A stretch of 64,000 nucleotides of DNA from Flintibacter muris (lineage in GTDB: Bacteria; Bacillota; Clostridia; Oscillospirales; Oscillospiraceae). The position numbers and the translations under genes were made by a program. The stretch lies in contig NZ_CALPCP010000002.1 of NCBI RefSeq assembly GCF_943192995.1, positions 248,001 through 312,000 on the forward strand, in the 5' to 3' direction. Below, in pieces: positions 17,522 through 31,350 of the stretch; position 1 is the first letter of the stretch, and every line of letters starts with the position of its first letter. The notes under the pieces were generated by a model, which had not been told where the DNA came from, did not search any database, and was given only the letters and a program-made list of their open reading frames with translations.

Positions 17522-17703
17522 GGTTAAGGACAACGGAAAAGGTCCTTAACCCCCTGATATTTCACCCGGTCCTAGGCCGGTTGGAATATAGTACCGCGCT
17601 GAAAATGTTGAGCATTGTGGCCACGTGCTCAACCATGGAAGGCGCAAAACAGATTTGTGCCGGAAGCAAGGATGCGATAAGGCACACTAAAATTTGAAAG
17701 GAG
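17522..17703 (+). promoter_or_regulatory. Structured flagellin 5' leader with candidate CsrA sites
   Basis: A 10-bp hairpin (GGTTAAGGAC/GTCCTTAACC, 17522-17551) carries GGA in its loop. A second hairpin, GTTGAGCA/TGCTCAAC, follows. A third, TGTGCC (17656-17661) with GGCACA (17681-17686), exposes GGAAGCAAGGATGCG in its loop. CAAGGATG (17667-17674) matches the core of the CsrA site consensus. The Shine-Dalgarno AAAGGAG (17697-17703) would be the second site. CsrA control of flagellin translation through paired leader sites is known in Bacillus. Here it is inferred. Confidence 0.5.
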
Positions 17704-17711
17704 TCAATCCC

Positions 17712-19415
17712 ATGCGTATTCAACACAATATTATGGCTATGAATGCCTACCGCAACTACAACAACAACGCCAGCAAGCTGTCCGGCAACCTGGAGAAGCT
17801 GTCCTCCGGCTACAAGATCAACCGCGCCGGTGACGATGCCGCCGGTCTGGCTATTTCCGAGAAGATGCGCGCCCAGATCACCGGTCTGGAAGCCGCTCAG
17901 AAGAACGTGAAGGACGGCATCTCCCTGGTGAAGACCGCTGAGGGCGCCATGCAGGAGATTCAGGACATGCTCAACCGCATGGACTACCTGGCCACCCAGT
18001 CCGCCAACGGCACCTATCAGGACGCGGTGGACCGTGAGAACCTCCAGAAAGAGGTTGACGCTCTGAAAGAGGAAATCAACCGTATCGCCGACAGCGCCAA
18101 CTTCAACGGCATCCAGTTGCTGGACGGCACTCAGGCCGGTAGCACCACCAGCGCCATGGACGCCGGTGACCTGGTTTCTGTCACTGCCGTTAAGGACGCT
18201 GAGCAGCCCGCCAAAACCGGACAGAAGGGTGAGTACAGTGTTGACCTGAGCAACTTTGAGGGCAAGACCACCGGCACCAGCGTCACCATCAAGGTGGGCG
18301 GCAAGACCGTCGCCTCAGTGGCCGTTACCGGCGCTACCGCGAGCAAGCCCGCAACCGTTACCGCTGCCGACATCAAGGCTGGCACTATTGCGAGCACTGT
18401 GACAATCGGCACCACCAAGTTTGATGTTAAGCTGGAGGGCGACAAGATCAAACTGACGATGAAGTCCATTCCCAAGACTGACTTTACCACTGATATGAAG
18501 GTCACCACAAGTGGTCTTACAGGTTCCACAGCTGGTGCCGGTAACCAGGGTCTGCCTGAGGCTGTCACCGTTGAGAAGCCCGCCTATAAGGAGGCGAACA
18601 ACGAGTACGCCCAGGGTAAATTTACTCTCACTTCTGACCAGATCAAGGACGGTGCCCAGATCCGCATCGGTCAGGACGTCTACACCTTCGCGGTTGGCAA
18701 GGACAGCACGGTGAAGGGCAACAACGTGATCGACCTGAAGCACATGAAGGAAGGCGACACCGATATCGAGAAGGAAGCGGCCCGCGTGCTGTCTTCTGTC
18801 GCCAGCGGCAACAAGTGGTTCAAGGTGACCAGCGATAACAGCACCGGCACTGTGTATCTGACCGAGAAGATGAACGAGAACCGCCCCTATAAGAACGACA
18901 TGGTGGGCAAGAAGAATGCTGGCGCTGATACGGATGCCGACTGGAACGGCACCGGCGACGGCGCCGTGGCTATGGTGCGGTACAGCGCCACCGGCGGCCT
19001 GAGCGCCAGCAAGGATGGCGGTCTGACCCTCCAGATCGGCGACACCGCTGACAGCTTCAACCAGATGAGCGTTATCATCGGCGATATGCACACCTCCGCT
19101 CTGGGCATTGATCCTGTGGACATCGGCACCCAGACCGGCGCTCAGGATGCTATCAAGACCATCAAGGCCGCCATCAACAACGTGTCCTCCGTCCGTGGTG
19201 ATCTGGGCGCTGTCCAGAACCGTCTGGAGCACACCGCCAACAACCTGTCCGTGATGGCCGAGAACATCCAGGACGCCGAGTCCACCATCCGCGACACCGA
19301 CGTTGCCGAGGAAATGATGAGCTACGTCAAGAACAACATTCTGGTTCAGTCCGCCCAGGCCATGCTGGCCCAGGCCAACCAGGTGCCTCAGGGCGTGCTC
19401 CAGCTGCTGGGCTAA
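17712..19415 (+). CDS. fliC: Flagellin
   Basis: The 567-residue filament protein has the conserved D0/D1 ends: MRIQHNIMAMNAYRN at the start, NLEKLSSGYKINRAGDDAAG following, and a C-terminus ending QANQVPQGVLQLLG. The middle (about residues 140-440) is a variable, threonine- and lysine-rich surface region that offers many Ser/Thr sites for O-glycans. Arg89, Leu93 and Glu114 line up with the TLR5-contact residues of Salmonella flagellin. The ATG at 17712 follows AAAGGAG. An in-frame TTG at 17694 lies upstream of the ribosome site and is not used. A strong terminator follows, so it is mainly monocistronic. Confidence 0.97.
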   Translation: MRIQHNIMAMNAYRNYNNNASKLSGNLEKLSSGYKINRAGDDAAGLAISEKMRAQITGLEAAQKNVKDGISLVKTAEGAMQEIQDMLNRMDYLATQSANGTYQDAVDRENLQKEVDALKEEINRIADSANFNGIQLLDGTQAGSTTSAMDAGDLVSVTAVKDAEQPAKTGQKGEYSVDLSNFEGKTTGTSVTIKVGGKTVASVAVTGATASKPATVTAADIKAGTIASTVTIGTTKFDVKLEGDKIKLTMKSIPKTDFTTDMKVTTSGLTGSTAGAGNQGLPEAVTVEKPAYKEANNEYAQGKFTLTSDQIKDGAQIRIGQDVYTFAVGKDSTVKGNNVIDLKHMKEGDTDIEKEAARVLSSVASGNKWFKVTSDNSTGTVYLTEKMNENRPYKNDMVGKKNAGADTDADWNGTGDGAVAMVRYSATGGLSASKDGGLTLQIGDTADSFNQMSVIIGDMHTSALGIDPVDIGTQTGAQDAIKTIKAAINNVSSVRGDLGAVQNRLEHTANNLSVMAENIQDAESTIRDTDVAEEMMSYVKNNILVQSAQAMLAQANQVPQGVLQLLG

Positions 19416-19453: not shown

Positions 19454-19489
19454 AAAGGGGGCTGGGCCTGTGCCCGGCCCCCTTTTTGA
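19454..19489 (+). terminator. Strong terminator after flagellin
   Basis: A 14-bp stem with one G-T pair (AAAGGGGGCTGGGC with GCCCGGCCCCCTTT) closes a CTGT loop and runs into further T's. It separates flagellin from the glycan genes, whose first start lies only 22 bases further on. Confidence 0.85.
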
Positions 19490-19511: not shown

Positions 19512-21536
19512 ATGAGAACAGTAGAAATCGCGCGGCGGCTTGCCCAGTTAAATGAGACGGAACAGGCGTGCCAGGCCTATATTCTGGCCCTGCATGAGCT
19601 CGGCGGCGCGGACCCGGATACGGAGCTGGAGGCCGCCTTGTATATCCTGCAATTTGGCAGCGGGGAGAACTATAAAATCTCTTACACAGTTTTTCGTGAC
19701 CTGTACAACGCGGGCTTTTGCAAAGAGGACATGTTACAGATTATGGACGGGGCCTTTTACACCCCGAATCTCAAGCTGATGCAGACGCGCTACCGGAAAA
19801 ACTGCGCCCTGCTGGGGAAATACCCCTATATCTTCCGAAAGGACTTTTTGAAATTTGAGGACCTTCCCATCCGCTTTTACCCCTTTGATGACAACAGCTA
19901 TACCCCCTTTTACGTGGAGGAGGAGCGGTTTGGCGACTATATAGACTTTAGAGAGCCGGTTATTAAGCACTATTTTTTCAATGACTTGGAAAATCCCATC
20001 CTGGCCAAGGATGTTTATTCACAATATGAACTGGAATACCTCCGGGACAACGTGCGCCGCAGTGAGGACGTGGCCCGGGAGAACCATATTTACCTGCACT
20101 ACACCAGCTGGCGGGAGTTCTGCGCCTGCCTTGCCTGCCTGAATATAAAGCCCCTGCTGGAGGAGAAAAAAATTGTCTTCCTCTTTGAGGAGGAGATCGA
20201 GCAATACCCCATCGACTTTAAAGAGCGCTTCCGGATTGACTACAGCAAGCTGAATGTAAGACCCCTGGCCATTCGTGAAGTCACCCGGATGATCTGGCAC
20301 GGACAGCTGAGCAGCCATAACGGCGGTGACCTGTTCAACGAGGTGTTCGACGCCCATCCCAACCTGATCGCCATGCCCTCCATCCTGATGTCGAATATAG
20401 AGGAGACCATTGAAGTGACCCGGAGGGAACTGGAGGAGAGCGGCAGCCTGGCCGAGGCCCAGCAGCGCCTCAGCTACTGGAACGACCCGAAGCTGATTGA
20501 GGAGCTCTACCACAACCGGGCCCGGACAGATAAGGATATTTTGATCGGTATGTACCTGTACCGAAAGGAGTACACAGGATTTTTAGACCCCAACTCCCGC
20601 ATTGTCCCAGCCCTGTTTTTCCAGCCCCATTTCAGCAACATCATTTATTCCATGCGCTCAGACTCCAAGGGCCGCACTGTGCTGTACTCGGAGGAATACG
20701 AGACAATACGGACCTCGCCGGTGTTTTTGGGCTTTAAGTATATTAAGACCTTTCTGCCCATGCGCCGTCCCACCACCAGCCACGGCGGCACAGTGAAGTT
20801 TATGGACGGCATGGCCGCCTATGAAAATGAACACAGGAATGAGGACGGCGTGACAACAGTGGCCACCGACGCCGTCTCAGAACGGGTGATGAACCGCAGC
20901 TTTATGGTGGACAAGCAGGACCGCATTTGCCGTGACAGCGTAATCGTCCGCTTTGAGGACGGCAAGCTTAATCCCACAGCGACCTTCACCGCCCTGGCCG
21001 CCTTCCTGGACCTACCCTATACCCAGACCATGACTAAATGCACAGACTGCGGCAAAGAGGCGATTGTACCCGGTAAGGCCACAGGGTTTGACCCGGTGAC
21101 TGTCTATAAAACCTATGACGAGTATGTCAATGACAAAGAGCGCATTTTTATCGAGTTTTTCCTCCGGGACGCCTACCAGTATTATGGCTATGATTTTCAC
21201 TACTATGACGGAAAGCCGATGGACAAAGAACAGGTGGACGAGCTGCTGAAGGGCTTTGACACCATAGACAGCTATATTCGAAAAACCTGGCGGCTGGCAG
21301 TGGCCCGAACAGAGGTCTGGCAGGACGGCGTGCTTGTTGAGGACGAGAAAGTCCGGGATGAGGTACACGAACAGATGGTGGACAACTATATACAGCGCGT
21401 TTGGGAAAGCCGGCGGAAGATGGCGGATGTCCTGATGAATGATCTGCGCTTTGTGGGCAAAAACGGCCAGCCCCTGCACATGATGCCTCTGCTGAAACCC
21501 AGCCCCGAGCTGCTGGAGCAGCCGCTGTACCACTAG
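19512..21536 (+). CDS. Large sulfotransferase-like protein, first gene of the glycan island
   Basis: The 674-residue cytoplasmic protein has no membrane helix. The N-terminal 250 residues are helical and unassigned. Around residues 261-290 the pattern GQLSSHNGGDLFNEVFDAHP resembles the sulfotransferase 5'-phosphosulfate loop and helix (..RSGTS.L...LDAHP). Near 474-502 VRFEDGKLNPTATF with AAFLDLP resembles the 3'-phosphate motif (RYEDL..NP...L..FL.L). The P-loop is divergent, so activity is uncertain. The next gene encodes an APS-kinase-family protein and a PHP phosphatase lies three genes on, which supports use of a 3'-phosphonucleotide donor. Ribosome site AAGGAG. Confidence 0.6.
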   Translation: MRTVEIARRLAQLNETEQACQAYILALHELGGADPDTELEAALYILQFGSGENYKISYTVFRDLYNAGFCKEDMLQIMDGAFYTPNLKLMQTRYRKNCALLGKYPYIFRKDFLKFEDLPIRFYPFDDNSYTPFYVEEERFGDYIDFREPVIKHYFFNDLENPILAKDVYSQYELEYLRDNVRRSEDVARENHIYLHYTSWREFCACLACLNIKPLLEEKKIVFLFEEEIEQYPIDFKERFRIDYSKLNVRPLAIREVTRMIWHGQLSSHNGGDLFNEVFDAHPNLIAMPSILMSNIEETIEVTRRELEESGSLAEAQQRLSYWNDPKLIEELYHNRARTDKDILIGMYLYRKEYTGFLDPNSRIVPALFFQPHFSNIIYSMRSDSKGRTVLYSEEYETIRTSPVFLGFKYIKTFLPMRRPTTSHGGTVKFMDGMAAYENEHRNEDGVTTVATDAVSERVMNRSFMVDKQDRICRDSVIVRFEDGKLNPTATFTALAAFLDLPYTQTMTKCTDCGKEAIVPGKATGFDPVTVYKTYDEYVNDKERIFIEFFLRDAYQYYGYDFHYYDGKPMDKEQVDELLKGFDTIDSYIRKTWRLAVARTEVWQDGVLVEDEKVRDEVHEQMVDNYIQRVWESRRKMADVLMNDLRFVGKNGQPLHMMPLLKPSPELLEQPLYH

Positions 21537-21554
21537 AGAAGGGAATCAATACAT

Positions 21555-22058
21555 ATGAGCGAAAAGGGAACTGTCTACTTTTTCACCGGCCTGGCCGGCG
21601 CGGGCAAAACCACCATCGGCGGGCTGTTTTACCAGCGGCTGAAGGCGCAGAAGTCCAACGTCTTTCTGGCCGACGGCGACCAGACCCGAAGCATTTTTGG
21701 CCGTTCAGGCTACTCCACCGAGGCCCGTCTGGACGCGGCCCGGCGGGGCTTCCGCCTGTGGCGGGAGCTGGCCGAGCAGGGAATCGACGTGGTGGTGTGC
21801 AGCATTGCCATGTATCAGGAGATCCAGCGCTGGAACCGGGAAAACATTGAAAACTATAAGGAAATCTACATCAAGGTGACCCGGGAGACCCTGTATCGCC
21901 GGGACCAGAAGCAGCTGTACTCCTCCGGACGGAAGGAAGTGGTGGGGGTGGACCTGCCCTATGATGAGCCCCAGGACGCCGACGTGGTGGTCCAGAACGA
22001 CGGCCAGGAGACCCCAGAGGAGATCGTATCCCGGCTCAGGGGCATGTTTGGACTGTAA
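21555..22058 (+). CDS. cysC: APS-kinase-family (CysC-like) kinase
   Basis: The 167-residue product has P-loop GLAGAGKTT (residues about 13-21), ADGDQTRSIFG in place of the DGDN.R motif, RDQKQLYS, and VVGVDLPYDEP, which parallels the TGIDDPYE.P end of APS kinases. Classic APS kinases make PAPS, the sulfate donor. A subgroup in glycan loci, such as Campylobacter Cj1415, instead phosphorylates cytidine diphosphoramidate, and residues like WNRENI and RDQK fit that subgroup as well. Both make a 3'-phosphonucleotide. No ATP sulfurylase is in the window. It is flanked by the sulfotransferase-like gene and a cytidylyltransferase. Confidence 0.8.
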   Translation: MSEKGTVYFFTGLAGAGKTTIGGLFYQRLKAQKSNVFLADGDQTRSIFGRSGYSTEARLDAARRGFRLWRELAEQGIDVVVCSIAMYQEIQRWNRENIENYKEIYIKVTRETLYRRDQKQLYSSGRKEVVGVDLPYDEPQDADVVVQNDGQETPEEIVSRLRGMFGL

Positions 22059-22069
22059 AGGAGCGGCTT

Positions 22070-22780
22070 ATGAACATTGCCTTGATTATCGCCGGCGGCA
22101 GCGGGCAGCGGATGCAGCAGGAGATTCCCAAGCAGTTTCTGAATGTGAACGACAAGCCGGTTATTATCTATACCCTGGAGGCGTTCCAGTCCCACCCGGA
22201 TATCGACAAAATCGGAGTGGTCTGCCTGGACGGCTGGTACGACATCCTGCGGGCCTATGCTAGGCAGTATGGGATCGACAAGCTGGAATGGATTGCCCCC
22301 GGCGGAGAAAACGGACAGGCCTCCATCCGCAGCGGCGTTTTTGAGGCGGAACGGCGGTACGCGGGGGACGATATCATCCTGGTCCACGACGCGATCCGCC
22401 CCATGGTGTCCCAGGAGATCATCTCAGACTGTATCGTGCAGTGCAAAAAGCACGGCTCCGCCATTGTGGTCACCCCCTGCAACACAGTTGTGCTCAGACG
22501 CACAACGGAGGAGAGCTCCCAGGAGGTGGTTCTCCGGGAAGAGCTGGCTGTAACCCAGACACCTCAGGCTTTCCCCATCAAGCGCCTGGCCGACGCCCAC
22601 CGGAAGGCGCTGGAGCTGGGGATCACCAACTCCATTGCCAGCTGCACCCTGATGGTGGAGCTGGGGGAAGAAATATTTTTCTCTATTGGTGCGGAGACCA
22701 ACATCAAATTGACTACGCCGGATGATCTGAAGATATTTAAGGCGCTGCTGGCGCTCAGAGATGCCGGTGCCCGGACTTGA
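22070..22780 (+). CDS. IspD/TarI-type CTP:polyol phosphate cytidylyltransferase
   Basis: The 236-residue enzyme has the nucleotidyltransferase start IIAGGSGQRM and PKQFL, then VHDAIRP and TQTPQAF, all hallmarks of the IspD/TarI family. It would activate a phosphorylated alcohol or sugar as a CDP derivative. Its place between the CysC-like kinase and an epimerase, in a glycan island, makes an isoprenoid role (true IspD) less likely than CDP-ribitol-like or other CDP-linked donor synthesis. The strong ribosome site AAAGGAG lies 6 bases before the ATG. Confidence 0.82.
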   Translation: MNIALIIAGGSGQRMQQEIPKQFLNVNDKPVIIYTLEAFQSHPDIDKIGVVCLDGWYDILRAYARQYGIDKLEWIAPGGENGQASIRSGVFEAERRYAGDDIILVHDAIRPMVSQEIISDCIVQCKKHGSAIVVTPCNTVVLRRTTEESSQEVVLREELAVTQTPQAFPIKRLADAHRKALELGITNSIASCTLMVELGEEIFFSIGAETNIKLTTPDDLKIFKALLALRDAGART

Positions 22781-22786
22781 GAAGCT

Positions 22787-23827
22787 ATGAGACTTGTTGA
22801 AAACCAGCGATATGCCGCCTCCCTTGCCCGCGCGCTGTCCGGCCTGGAGCTGTCACCCTTGCAGGGGAGGCGGGTTCTGGTTGCCGGGGCCGCAGGGATG
22901 CTGGGGAGCTGCGTGGTGGACCTGCTGCGCAGCTATGGACAGTGCGAAATAATTGCCATGGGGAGAAATGCGTCTGCCCTTGAGGAGCGGTTCGGCCCGG
23001 CGGATGATACATACTCCTTCTGCCGGCAGGATGTGTCAGAGCCTGTAACACAGGGCCTGGGAGATGTGGACTATATCATCCACGCCGCCAGCAACGCGGA
23101 CCCGGTGCGTATGGCAAAAGACCCGGCAGGGACTTTGATGGCCAACGTGCAGGGGACAAAAAATCTGCTGGACTATGGCCTGTCCCACGGGATGAGACGC
23201 TTTTTGTTTGTCTCCTCCGGGGAGGCATATGGCCGGCCCAACGCCAATATGGACGATTTTACCGAGGACTACTGCGGTCCTCTGGACCTGTCCGGTCCCC
23301 GCAGCTGTTATCCCGAGGGGAAGCGGGCGGCGGAGGTGCTGTGCCAGAGCTATATCAGCCAGTTTGGGGCGGATGCGGCGGTTGTGCGGCCCTGCCACCT
23401 GTTTGGACCGACCATGGCCCGGGGGGACAGCCGGGCGGTCTCTGAGTTTCTTCGGAGCGCAGCGGAGGGCCGGGATATTGTGATGAAGAGCGCAGGTCTG
23501 ATGGAGCGCTCCCACTGTTATGTGGTAGACGCCGCCCAGGCGCTGCTGGCTGTGCTGACGCAGGGGGAGCGGGGCAGGGGATACAACGTTGCGGACAGGC
23601 GGTATCAGATGCGGATCTGTGATTTTGCCAGGCGGGCAGCCCAGGCGGGCGGCTGTCAGGTGATTTTTAAGGAGCCCAGTGAACTGGAGCGGGCCGGCTA
23701 TTCCAAGGTCAGCCGGGCGGTGCTGGATGCCTCCCGGCTGGAGGCGCTGGGCTGGCGACCTCAGACGGAGGAAGCGATTACGCAGACCGTTGCAATTCTC
23801 AGAGAAAGTAAGAGAAGTGAGCCATAA
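22787..23827 (+). CDS. NAD-dependent sugar epimerase/dehydratase (extended SDR)
   Basis: The 346-residue protein has a Rossmann motif GAAGMLG (residues about 33-39), HAASNADP, an SSGEAYG segment and the catalytic YPEGK (YxxxK). This is the layout of UDP-sugar epimerases, decarboxylases and dehydratases. Overall it resembles UDP-glucuronate decarboxylase-like proteins, but the substrate cannot be read from sequence. It follows the cytidylyltransferase by 6 bases and may act on the same CDP-linked or phosphorylated sugar. Confidence 0.85.
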   Translation: MRLVENQRYAASLARALSGLELSPLQGRRVLVAGAAGMLGSCVVDLLRSYGQCEIIAMGRNASALEERFGPADDTYSFCRQDVSEPVTQGLGDVDYIIHAASNADPVRMAKDPAGTLMANVQGTKNLLDYGLSHGMRRFLFVSSGEAYGRPNANMDDFTEDYCGPLDLSGPRSCYPEGKRAAEVLCQSYISQFGADAAVVRPCHLFGPTMARGDSRAVSEFLRSAAEGRDIVMKSAGLMERSHCYVVDAAQALLAVLTQGERGRGYNVADRRYQMRICDFARRAAQAGGCQVIFKEPSELERAGYSKVSRAVLDASRLEALGWRPQTEEAITQTVAILRESKRSEP

Positions 23828-24640
23828 ATGCGAATTGTTGATTTACACACCCACAGTACGGCCTCAGACGGACAGTACGCCCCGGAGGAGGTAGTCCGCC
23901 AGGCAAAGGAGCGGGGGCTGGAGGTGCTGGCCCTCACGGACCACGACACTCTGGACGGTGTGGAGGAGGCGGTCAGGGCCGGGGAGCGCTTGGGACTCAA
24001 GGTGCTCCGGGGCATTGAGATCGGTGCGGCGGAGTATGAAAACCTGCACATTCTGGGCTACAACGTCTCCTCTGAGGCCCCGAAGCTGACGGAACTGTGC
24101 AGAAAATTCAAGGCGGGGCGGGATGCGCGAAGCTTCCGGATTTTGAACTATCTGCATGAAAACGGCTTTGAGCTGACCCTGGAGGAGGTAGAGGCGTTGG
24201 CCGGGGGGAGCATCATTGGCCGGCCCCACTTCGCGCAGGCCATGGTCCGCCGGGGCTATGTGAGCAGCAACCGGGAGGCCTTTGACCGCTGGCTGGACAC
24301 GGAGGACTACCACCAAAAGGTGAAGCGGTTCAAGGCGGAGGCGAAAATCTGTCTGAAGGCCATCAAGGCCGCCGGCGGCAAGGCGTCCCTGGCACACCCC
24401 TACCAGGTCGGCCTGGAGGACGGGGCGCTGGAGGAGCTGGTCGCCCAGCTCAAGGAGGACGGCCTGGACGCCATTGAGTGCTACTATCCCCGGCATACAA
24501 CCGAGCAGACGGCCTTCTATCTCCGCCTGGCGAAGAAATACAATCTGCACATAACCGGCGGCAGCGACTTTCACGGTGAGAAGGTAAAGCCGGATATTCA
24601 GCTGGCGGCCTGGGAGCTGGAGCTGGATTGGCTTTTATAA
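23828..24640 (+). CDS. PHP-domain phosphatase, TrpH/RNase AM-like
   Basis: The 270-residue protein is a PHP metal-dependent phosphoesterase. DLHTHSTASDG, LTDHDT, GIEIG, a HP in ASLAHPY, and GSDFHG provide the metal ligands in order. Characterised relatives of this length (the YciV/TrpH group) hydrolyse the 3'-phosphate of adenosine 3',5'-bisphosphate or short RNAs. Beside an APS-kinase-like and a sulfotransferase-like gene, a role in clearing the inhibitory 3',5'-bisphosphate by-product is attractive. That is inference. The start lies directly after the preceding stop. Confidence 0.85.
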   Translation: MRIVDLHTHSTASDGQYAPEEVVRQAKERGLEVLALTDHDTLDGVEEAVRAGERLGLKVLRGIEIGAAEYENLHILGYNVSSEAPKLTELCRKFKAGRDARSFRILNYLHENGFELTLEEVEALAGGSIIGRPHFAQAMVRRGYVSSNREAFDRWLDTEDYHQKVKRFKAEAKICLKAIKAAGGKASLAHPYQVGLEDGALEELVAQLKEDGLDAIECYYPRHTTEQTAFYLRLAKKYNLHITGGSDFHGEKVKPDIQLAAWELELDWLL

Positions 24641-28994: not shown

Positions 28995-29939
28995 ATGGAT
29001 TTACAAAAGCAGGTAGATATCAGTGTTATCGTTTTGAGTTTTTTCCATGAAACATATATTGCTCAGGCGTTAGACAGCATTTTAGATCAAGAGACCAGTC
29101 TCCGGTACGAGGTTTTGATTGGAGACGACGCGTCTCGGGACCGAACGCCGGAGATCATCAAGGAGTATGCGGCCCGATACCCAGATGTTATTTTTCCTAC
29201 CCTGCGTGAAGAAAATGTAGGGGCAAATCAAAATGGGACAGAGCTGTTGGAGCGGGCGCGGGGGAAGTATATCGCAATATTGGAGGGAGACGATTTCTGG
29301 CTGGACCCGTACAAGCTGCAAAAACAGTGGGGATTTCTGGAATCCCATCCGGAGTACAGTGCTTGCTGCGGAAAATGTCTGATTGTAGATGAAAACGGAC
29401 AGCCGGACTACACACAGGTTCCCCATTTTGTCTGGAACAAAAAGATTTTTACCTTGGATGACTTGATCGAAAGCTGGAATGTGCCCGGACAGGCGGGCAC
29501 CATGATGTACAGGCGTGTGACAGATACAGACCCTGCGCTGAGCCATATTCATCGCAATGTAGGGGACAAGACCAGTGTGCTGGTACTGCTGTCCAAGGGG
29601 CCGATTTATTGCAGTAACGAGGTTCTGTCTGCTTACCGCCGTGTAGACAAAAGCGGAAAACACAACTGGTTTTCCATTCACCACAGCAACCCGTACCGAA
29701 ACTACGATATGTTTATGTACCCATGCAAGCTGGAAACCTGGGCCAGGAAGCATATGGACCTGCCCCGGAACAAGCACTTCGGAAAACGGAGCGAGTACCG
29801 GTTCTGCCGGTTCGTGGAGGAACTGGTGAGAGAGCCGTCTTGGACAAGGGTGAAATATCTGGCCGAGATGGTGGCGGGCAGCCATCAGCCGGCCAAGTAT
29901 GGCTGGACAATTCTGAAAGCACTGATTGAAATGGAGTGA
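28995..29939 (+). CDS. Family 2 glycosyltransferase
   Basis: The product (about 314 residues) has the GT-A start ISVIVLSFFHETYIAQALDS, IGDDASRDRT for the nucleotide-sugar site and EGDDFW as the DxD-like metal motif. The acceptor is unknown. Similar enzymes build flagellin or surface glycans in Clostridia. The ATG at 28995 is chosen because GGGGAG lies just upstream and the next in-frame start would overlap the preceding gene by more than 100 bases. Confidence 0.9.
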   Translation: MDLQKQVDISVIVLSFFHETYIAQALDSILDQETSLRYEVLIGDDASRDRTPEIIKEYAARYPDVIFPTLREENVGANQNGTELLERARGKYIAILEGDDFWLDPYKLQKQWGFLESHPEYSACCGKCLIVDENGQPDYTQVPHFVWNKKIFTLDDLIESWNVPGQAGTMMYRRVTDTDPALSHIHRNVGDKTSVLVLLSKGPIYCSNEVLSAYRRVDKSGKHNWFSIHHSNPYRNYDMFMYPCKLETWARKHMDLPRNKHFGKRSEYRFCRFVEELVREPSWTRVKYLAEMVAGSHQPAKYGWTILKALIEME

Positions 29940-29946
29940 ATACATT

Positions 29947-31350
29947 ATGAAATTTTGTGAGAGACCTTTTAATAGTATTTATTTGCCGCCCAGCGGTGAA
30001 GTTTGGCCCTGCGCCTGGATGCACTTTGTGATGGGGAGTCTGAACGATCAGGATTTGGATGAAATTTGGAACAGTGATGCGGCAAAGGCGGCGCGTGAAA
30101 CAATTTTGGACGGTTCCTTCGCATTCTGCCGGAAAACCTCCTGCCAGTTTATTGAACGGGGAACACTGCCGGATCTGTCCGAGGAGGAAATAAAAGAGCG
30201 GGCTGTTGCCGCGGAGTCGCCGGAACTTATTACTGTGGCGAACGATAAGATTTGTAATATTGCCTGCACAACCTGCCGTACATCCCTTTTCTGTCCGGAG
30301 GAGGGGTACCGTGAGAAGCTGGATGTGATGCTGGAGCGGCTTTTGCCTGTTCTAAATCGCGCGAAGCATGTGGATTTAAATGGGTACGGTGAGTTTTTGG
30401 CAAATCCCAGCTTTGTGAAGCTGCTGGAAAGGCTGCGTCCGGAGCGGGAGGATTTTCAGATTACATTTGAAACTAATGGCATCCTGTTTGACGAGGAGCA
30501 TTGGGCGAAATTTTCTCATTTGCAGGACTACTATCTGAATGTTGTTGTGACCATAAACAGCCTGCGGCGGGAGACCTATCAGTATCTCACCGGCGGATTT
30601 GATAAGCTGGAGCAGGCTTTGAACAATTTGAAATTTCTCAGCAGACTGCGCAGAGAGAATAAGATTAACTGGCTGATGGTAACTATGGTGGTCCAGGACT
30701 CCAATTTCTGGGAAATTCCGGAGTATGTGCGTACATTTGCCCACTCAGAGGATTACGAGGCAGACCAAATTATACTGAAACCGGTCTACAACTGGTATGG
30801 GATGAAGCATGATACCTACTGGTTTAAAAATATTCTTAATCCGCTTCATCCCTATCATAAAGCTTATCTGAGAATATTAGAGGATGACTGCTGGAAGGAG
30901 CCGAAGGTGCTCAACTGGGGCTGCCACAATATCCGTGAGGCCAGGCTGCACCCCCTGAGCCATGAGCAGATTAATAACCAGCTTCTGCTGAAAATCTATG
31001 AAAATGACAAGGGGATGTCCCCGGAAGATTACCTTGGAGCAGCTGTGAAACGTGTGTGTGGAAGCCGAATCGGCGTTTACGGGGAGGATGAATTTTCCCA
31101 GGCAATGCTCCGGCTGCTGCAAAAGACAGATGTGGAGCTTGCTTTCCGGCTGACTCGGTTTAAGGACGAGGAGGGAGAAATTCCCACAATTTCGCTGCAA
31201 AATCTCCGCCCGGAGATGGCGGATGCTATCCTGATGCTGGACTCCTACGATCAGGCGCATTGGACGGATAACCTGCGCAACCGGAAATTCCAGGGGCCGA
31301 TTGTCAATTTGGAGGAACTGCTGAACGAGGATAAGGAAAACAAACAATGA
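29947..31350 (+). CDS. Radical SAM protein with N-terminal SPASM-like module
   Basis: The 467-residue product begins with a segment (CERPFNSIYLPPSGEVWPC, MGSLNDQDLDEIWN, then FCRKTSC) that looks like a SPASM iron-sulfur module, which normally sits at the C-terminus. The radical SAM cluster motif CNIACTTC follows near residue 107. The last 120 residues resemble the Rossmann-like domains seen in neighbouring genes (GVYGEDEFSQAMLRLL). The order SPASM then radical SAM is unusual. The substrate may be a sugar or lipid-linked glycan, but this is not known. The ATG at 29947 has GGAG 9 bases upstream. Confidence 0.82.
   Translation: MKFCERPFNSIYLPPSGEVWPCAWMHFVMGSLNDQDLDEIWNSDAAKAARETILDGSFAFCRKTSCQFIERGTLPDLSEEEIKERAVAAESPELITVANDKICNIACTTCRTSLFCPEEGYREKLDVMLERLLPVLNRAKHVDLNGYGEFLANPSFVKLLERLRPEREDFQITFETNGILFDEEHWAKFSHLQDYYLNVVVTINSLRRETYQYLTGGFDKLEQALNNLKFLSRLRRENKINWLMVTMVVQDSNFWEIPEYVRTFAHSEDYEADQIILKPVYNWYGMKHDTYWFKNILNPLHPYHKAYLRILEDDCWKEPKVLNWGCHNIREARLHPLSHEQINNQLLLKIYENDKGMSPEDYLGAAVKRVCGSRIGVYGEDEFSQAMLRLLQKTDVELAFRLTRFKDEEGEIPTISLQNLRPEMADAILMLDSYDQAHWTDNLRNRKFQGPIVNLEELLNEDKENKQ

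Follow-up and report, generated by a model that had tools for sequence, protein, structure and literature searches.

We analysed a window of 64,000 nucleotides from Flintibacter muris (assembly GCF_943192995.1, contig NZ_CALPCP010000002.1, positions 248,001 to 312,000; the window is this whole stretch), in which a run of five genes lies behind a flagellin gene. The genes, all on the + strand, encode in order a large putative group transferase (ST), a kinase of the adenosine 5'-phosphosulfate (APS) kinase superfamily (KIN), a cytidylyltransferase (CYT), an extended short-chain dehydrogenase/reductase (SDR) and a phosphatase (PHP), and are separated by 18, 11, 6 and 0 bases. A preliminary description of this DNA had read the run as a module that makes, uses and recycles a 3'-phosphonucleotide-linked group for the decoration of flagellin glycans. 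Its open reading frames and their co-directional order behind flagellin were recovered at identical coordinates, and the families it had named for the last four proteins were borne out by family scans (KIN, PF01583, 85 bits; CYT, PF01128, 124 bits; SDR, PF01370, 157 bits; PHP, PF02811, 62 bits). The features are as follows.

17694..19415, + strand: flagellin, a listed open reading frame (ATG at 17712), presumed to be the acceptor or to carry the acceptor glycan
19464..19480, + strand: terminator-like hairpin and T run, between flagellin and ST
19512..21536, + strand: ST, 674 amino acids, group transferase with a modelled sulfotransferase fold and N-terminal TPR-like helices
20319..20330, + strand: ST N270-G271-G272-D273, probable counterpart of the donor 5'-phosphosulfate loop, judged from the alignment range
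20937..21020, + strand: ST residues 476-503, VRFED..NP..FLDLPY motif of sulfotransferase type
21555..22058, + strand: KIN, 167 amino acids, APS-kinase-superfamily kinase, proposed 3'-kinase of a cytidine diphosphate (CDP)-polyol
21735..21737, + strand: KIN Ala61, at the position held by Asn in the sampled APS kinases
22070..22780, + strand: CYT, 236 amino acids, IspD/TarI-type cytidylyltransferase
22787..23827, + strand: SDR, 346 amino acids, extended SDR, proposed reductase of a CDP-linked ketose
23828..24640, + strand: PHP, 270 amino acids, phosphatase proposed to hydrolyse a nucleoside 3',5'-bisphosphate by-product

Nine hairpin sites of this kind occur in the region against 6.8 ± 2.6 in shuffles, a count that is not above chance.

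The first two genes belong to a fixed two-enzyme core, ST plus kinase, which stands behind flagellin in some gut-type bacteria of the Oscillospira group and is joined to exchangeable gene sets that appear, from their sequences, to build different chemical tags. A total of 81 loci were counted, comprising the window and the best 80 of 123 loci confirmed in a scan of genome contigs; the record titles of these 80 name Oscillospiraceae genera, other Clostridia or Bacillota, or an uncultured bacterium, and two loci (L023 and L079) are apparently the same place represented twice. Of the 36 same-genus genomes searched, 9 carried ST, as did the window genome (10 of 60 genomes overall); a sample of 398 genomes from the phylum, the window genome among them, yielded 5 with ST, one of which, genome G367, matches profile positions 36-229 only. 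Homology to the C-terminal part of flagellin lies within 1.5 kb upstream of ST in all 66 loci having at least 400 bases there, its strand being taken from locus maps; with the fold described below, this agrees with the flagellin-linked module of the preliminary description. Of the 77 loci whose contig continues beyond ST, 76 have KIN after it, with a median gap of 20 bases, and the pairing is therefore beyond chance. The gap exceeds 1 kb in L037, L091 and L076, and four of the 76 KINs (L029, L055, L059, L080) are cut by the contig end. One draft genome carries four ST loci with four different cassettes.

ST had no family match of its own in the family scans, and similarity at the sequence level is weak: Pfam Sulfotransfer_3 matched 11 of 68 members (best E 0.0044) with the window protein not among them, residues 476-503 aligned to Sulfotransfer_3 proteins in hhalign at E 0.0066 and a probability of 5.8 %, and a match to TEG12 reached E about 1. 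Sequence alone was accordingly set aside as proof that ST is a sulfotransferase, and the fold was settled by a model. The AlphaFold2 model (predicted local distance difference test, pLDDT, 93.5) contains a sulfotransferase domain whose fold is that of the catalytic domain of sulfotransferases using 3'-phosphoadenosine 5'-phosphosulfate (PAPS), and in a structure comparison (VIA-align, Foldseek top 1000 chains) the best 24 of the 50 rows shown were sulfotransferases. Because the domain is present, the sulfotransferase-like motifs read from the 674-residue protein in the preliminary description were read correctly; of the refuting condition set there, the part on the fold was checked, and the fold was present. 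ST ends in QPLYH (window:21519-21533), the last His being invariant in 13 of 13 members and nearly so in 68. The N-terminal part (positions 36-229) also occurs on a protein with glycosyltransferase domain PF13524 in genome G367 (L132:7326-9389), which has a Maf-type protein (PF01973, PF20157) a few genes away; this part of ST may be a flagellin-recognition module.

A cassette was assigned in 68 of the 81 loci, nine others being cut and four unassigned. Individual examples were scanned against families, and the remaining members were assigned by tblastn to these references. The types are as follows.

CYT + SDR (window type): 14 loci, plus 3 with CYT only
Ribulose-phosphate epimerase homologue + CYT + medium-chain dehydrogenase (named by eye): 6 loci
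TagD-type cytidylyltransferase fused to an oxidoreductase, some with a LicD-like gene (by eye): 7 loci
Phosphonate genes: 14 loci
Phosphoramidate genes: 5 loci
Kinase-methyltransferase fusion: 14 loci
ATP sulfurylase: 3 loci
Short SDR + DUF2284 + nucleoside triphosphate (NTP) transferase: 2 loci, one of them Flavonifractor plautii ATCC 29863

The phosphonate cassette of L072 encodes phosphoenolpyruvate mutase (404 bits), phosphonopyruvate decarboxylase (452 bits) and 2-aminoethylphosphonate aminotransferase (429 bits), all above cut-offs. In single examples, the phosphoramidate cassette gave a match to NF004508 (911 bits, cut-off 501), which NCBIfam names merely 'hypothetical protein' and which we take to be of the Cj1418 glutamine-kinase type, a best family of gamma-glutamyl-CDP-amidate hydrolase (111 bits, below the cut-off of 250), an NTP transferase and a methyltransferase. 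Likewise from one example each, the epimerase of the epimerase type scored 162 bits, below its cut-off of 212.6, and the ATP sulfurylase 271 bits against a cut-off of 24.3. L033, and by homology L034, holds a 1-deoxyxylulose-5-phosphate synthase homologue and an RpiB-like isomerase. The sulfurylase cassettes (L086:5865-8143; L078 and L062 by homology) include a PF00999 exchanger-like membrane protein and a 319-residue pyruvate-kinase-barrel protein. After the ST of L103 (L103:2281-6350), ATP-binding cassette transporter-like genes, read by eye, and an NTP transferase occupy the place of the kinase.

KIN scored 165 bits with NF004041 (cut-off 127) and 87.7 bits with TIGR00455 apsK (cut-off 138.7), and the sulfurylase-linked kinase of L086 likewise fell below the latter with 120.3 bits. 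The KINs were compared with 31 APS kinases (E. coli CysC and 30 chosen by their TIGR00455 match); five short KINs and six whose loci are CYT-only, cut or unassigned were left uncounted. Within the ENIRR motif the Asn, which presumably has a role in APS binding, is present in 31/31 APS kinases and 3/3 sulfurylase-linked KINs, and in 0/62 KINs of the other assigned cassettes; the window KIN has Ala61 in its place, and IAM for the ISP motif of the sampled APS kinases. The replacing residue depends on the cassette: the phosphoramidate type has Ser (5/5), the CYT-SDR type Gly or Ala (14/14), the epimerase type Gly (6/6) and the methyltransferase fusion Trp or Arg (14/14), Asp occurs in 7 of 14 phosphonate loci, and the others are mixed. 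A careful tree of 83 rows resolved three clades, one of 14 APS kinases (100/99), one of the three kinases linked to sulfurylase (99/98) and one of the remaining 66 KINs (100/98). The last clade holds the window KIN together with the phosphoramidate-type kinases, in support of the preliminary description, and the window KIN lay outside the APS-kinase clade in the quick tree also. No phosphoramidate genes were recognised in the window cassette. The idea that the sulfurylase-linked kinases are more closely related to APS kinases was considered and dropped, as they form a third clade whose side is undecided.

The putative donor loop of ST also varies with the cassette. G272-D273 is kept in 76/76 non-phosphoramidate STs and is replaced by V/I and N/F in 5/5 phosphoramidate STs; by alignment range, this loop probably sits at the 5'-phosphosulfate position of sulfotransferases. 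In the ST tree L076 stands apart from L087, L093 and L095 (L077 is outside the tree), and no sign of recombination as the source of its change was seen, no stretch of L076 being closer to those three; the change thus arose at least twice. Cassette labels required 20 changes on the KIN tree (71 rows, shuffled mean 46) and 32 on the ST tree (67 rows, shuffled mean 44), both below every shuffle, the row sets of the two trees being different. We therefore conclude that kinase and cassette tend to travel together and that the transferase is re-paired. Sulfurylase, methyltransferase and phosphoramidate cassettes are found next to STs that share 69-71 % identity (L062, L071, L076), and CYT-SDR and epimerase cassettes next to STs that share 84 % (L038, L041).

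The cargo of the window cassette is suggested by CYT and SDR. The best solved relative of CYT is a ribitol-5-phosphate cytidylyltransferase, and a role as the housekeeping IspD is less likely, as a better-scoring IspD is encoded elsewhere in the genome. The two genes form an adjacent PF01128 cytidylyltransferase and PF01370 reductase, which is how the available part of PMC10918830 defines a pair that makes CDP-6-fructose and then CDP-6-glucitol, the pair Mnp1/Mnp2 giving CDP-mannitol. SDR residues 18-326 align with structures 8v4g and 8v4h (E 3e-30 to 4e-30), the first of which appears in the text of that source. The window copy thus looks, from its genes, built to attach a sugar-alcohol phosphate instead of sulfate.

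We propose that CYT would join a ketose phosphate to cytidine monophosphate (CMP) and that SDR would reduce the product to a CDP-linked polyol, the ribose 3'-OH of which would be phosphorylated by KIN. ST would recognise the 3'-phosphonucleotide and transfer polyol phosphate to a hydroxyl on flagellin or a flagellin glycan, releasing cytidine 3',5'-bisphosphate for recycling by PHP. In general terms, a cassette would supply a nucleotide-activated acid, KIN would add the 3'-phosphate, ST would transfer the group and PHP would clear the nucleoside bisphosphate. Sister loci with the same core may carry phosphoramidate, phosphonates, ribitol- or glycerol-type phosphates and possibly methyl phosphate, the last being a guess for the methyltransferase-fusion type; the three loci with ATP sulfurylase look like flagellin sulfation and would use sulfate as PAPS with a different kinase. 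On genome and model evidence, we consider it fairly probable that the gene run in the window represents one version of a platform for flagellin-linked group transfer with a CDP-based 3'-phosphonucleotide donor. Sequence or model show the gene content and order, the ST fold, the loss of APS-kinase residues, the failure to find ATP sulfurylase and the residue changes that go with the cassette; the nucleotide base, the 3' position, the identity of the polyol, the acceptor and every reaction we infer. For a wider reading the balance is even: that one sulfotransferase-fold family moves sulfate, phosphoramidate, phosphonate and polyol phosphate onto flagellin, from PAPS for sulfate and from 3'-phospho-CDP or 3'-phospho-CMP for the remaining groups, that kinase and cargo genes are exchanged as cassettes behind the transferase, and that Hin/TldR switching of flagellin also switches surface chemistry. 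We know of no report of 3'-phospho-CDP-polyols or 3'-phospho-CMP-phosphonates.

Several observations weigh against the proposed platform. The cargo is read from gene families, and SDR scores slightly better with uridine diphosphate-glucuronate decarboxylases than with the CDP-glucitol synthase structures. PHP is nearest to 3',5'-nucleoside bisphosphate phosphatases, in line with the preliminary description, and its best NCBIfam match (NF041577, 187 bits) misses the cut-off of 400; a PHP homologue lies downstream in 39 of the 81 loci, and in 32 of the 53 with 6 kb of room. No cytidylyltransferase was recognised in the methyltransferase-fusion loci, which leaves their donor unexplained. L103 has no KIN in the 6.4 kb after ST, the KIN of L091 is just a 28-residue stretch 1.5 kb away, and L076 has a second, shorter ST-like protein that is 27 % identical, so that either of the two may serve its phosphoramidate cassette. 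In the quick tree L065 is an exception, its kinase falling among the APS kinases; this kinase too is without the Asn, and the genome of L065, reached through L039, yielded no ATP sulfurylase.

The least improbable of the alternatives, though still unlikely, is that KIN acts on the cargo, or on some other small molecule, and not on a nucleotide 3'-OH, and that ST uses a plain CDP-polyol. The cassette-dependent KIN residues would also fit direct contact with the cargo, and a plain CDP-threonine donor is proposed for the Clostridioides difficile type A pathway in the accessible part of PMC10714395. Against this, one KIN family serves chemically unrelated cargo, for which a common nucleotide is the simplest explanation, the ST fold is that of enzymes binding 3'-phosphonucleotides whereas the C. 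difficile transferase is described there as TagF-like, and the kinase step in Campylobacter gives a 3'-phosphonucleotide (PMC11800397, in its available portion).

A route in which KIN produces PAPS and ST adds sulfate to flagellin or to flagellin glycans of this organism seems to us quite improbable. Such a route would account for the sulfotransferase fold and for the superfamily of KIN, and ATP sulfurylase does occur in three sister loci, but it leaves the operon's cytidylyltransferase without a role; moreover, both the Asn and the ISP motif are missing from KIN, which falls outside the APS-kinase clade. The preliminary description had suggested a search for ATP sulfurylase elsewhere in the genome; in this genome, 97 % complete, neither PF01747 nor CysD over its cut-off was found, one 22-bit CysD fragment aside. 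Of 50 further genomes with ST, three encode an ATP sulfurylase, exactly those with the sulfurylase flagellin cassette (coordinates fit the cassette gene in all three, and contig numbers agree for two of the three), and CysD over cut-off in none, with sub-cut-off matches in nine. As the completeness of many of these draft genomes is not given, an individual absence may reflect a gap. Since no ATP sulfurylase was found in the window genome and KIN has lost the APS-kinase residues, we rejected sulfation at the window locus; of the two groups offered in the preliminary description, sulfate fell away here and 'another group carried on CDP' was retained.

Least probable is that the core acts on some surface glycan that has nothing to do with the adjacent flagellin and that the link is chromosomal hitch-hiking: sugar and glycan genes (DegT, RmlA, RmlB, FkbM, GT2) do lie downstream in the window, but flagellin stands upstream in every locus with room, flagellin and ST are separated by the flagellin lysine methylase FliB in L049 (L049:7753-8979, 148 bits, cut-off 85) and by homology in L059 and L076, and short loci, for instance L026 and L101, hold ST, the kinase-methyltransferase and PHP only, followed by other unannotated genes. 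A radical SAM/SPASM protein is encoded at window positions 29926-31347, in the part of the island after the sugar genes.

TldR-like or Hin-like genes were found upstream of flagellin in 20 of the 37 loci with at least 2.5 kb there, and not in the window. TnpB-like proteins in 16 loci (L072:1900-3075, L088:4871-6055 and 14 others) have seemingly replaced the usual residues (GLKYS, REVNAAKNI) of what we take to be the appropriate RuvC motif for comparison, and lie 283-998 bases upstream of flagellin in those 14 of the 16 loci in which both were called. Proteins of about 190 residues with a helix-turn-helix upstream of flagellin (L033:1342-1926, L037:1466-2026 and others) cluster with nearby resolvases and are perhaps resolvase-derived regulators. 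The TnpB-like proteins look like TldR-like repressors, as in Oscillibacter, for which, with Flavonifractor plautii, csrA-tldR and hin flagellin loci are described in the available text of PMC13418256 (2026). Switching of flagellin may also switch flagellin chemistry.

If the proposed platform is correct, the 3'-phosphate on a CDP donor is explained as the handle gripped by a sulfotransferase-fold enzyme, the phosphoramidate transfer step of Campylobacter becomes testable by analogy, and the name 'adenylyl-sulfate kinase' that NF004041 gives to these kinases would be corrected. The chemistry proposed for gut-bacterial flagellins, proteins that host immune receptors and phages encounter, would come to include phosphonates, phosphoramidate, polyol phosphate and sulfate. 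In the literature searched, most subscription papers being outside its reach, none of the matches listed describes the system, and within that literature the view that no system with this gene set has been described stands.

Parts of the system resemble known ones. The csrA-tldR/hin switches concern the same kind of flagellin loci in related organisms; the available text of that work (PMC13418256) is about flagellin choice and does not contain the term 'glycosyl'. The C. difficile type A modification (cd0240-cd0244) likewise places a phosphodiester-linked group on flagellin from a proposed CDP-activated donor, but with a TagF-like transferase, a proposed plain CDP-threonine donor and, in the portion of PMC10714395 at hand, no mention of a 3'-kinase. 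Synthesis of CDP-6-glucitol and CDP-mannitol by HS5.18/HS5.17 and Mnp1/Mnp2 relies on the same pair of families as the window CYT and SDR; these serve capsule or lipopolysaccharide, and the available part of PMC10918830 does not mention 3'-phosphorylation. The modelled fold of the ST domain is that of PAPS-dependent sulfotransferases, the nearest being tyrosylprotein sulfotransferase, from which ST differs in its N-terminal TPR-like region, in having hardly any sequence similarity, and in that no PAPS route was found in the window genome or in 47 of the 50 genomes tested. The O-methyl phosphoramidate pathway of Campylobacter jejuni differs in its capsular polysaccharide target, its single cargo and its lack of a flagellin link. 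According to PMC11800397, CDP-phosphoramidate 3'-phosphate is the product of Cj1415-Cj1418, and the modification is lost when Cj1421 or Cj1422 is deleted; the donor is thus a 3'-phospho-CDP compound, as proposed here, and the phosphoramidate-type sister loci hold apparently the same enzymes.

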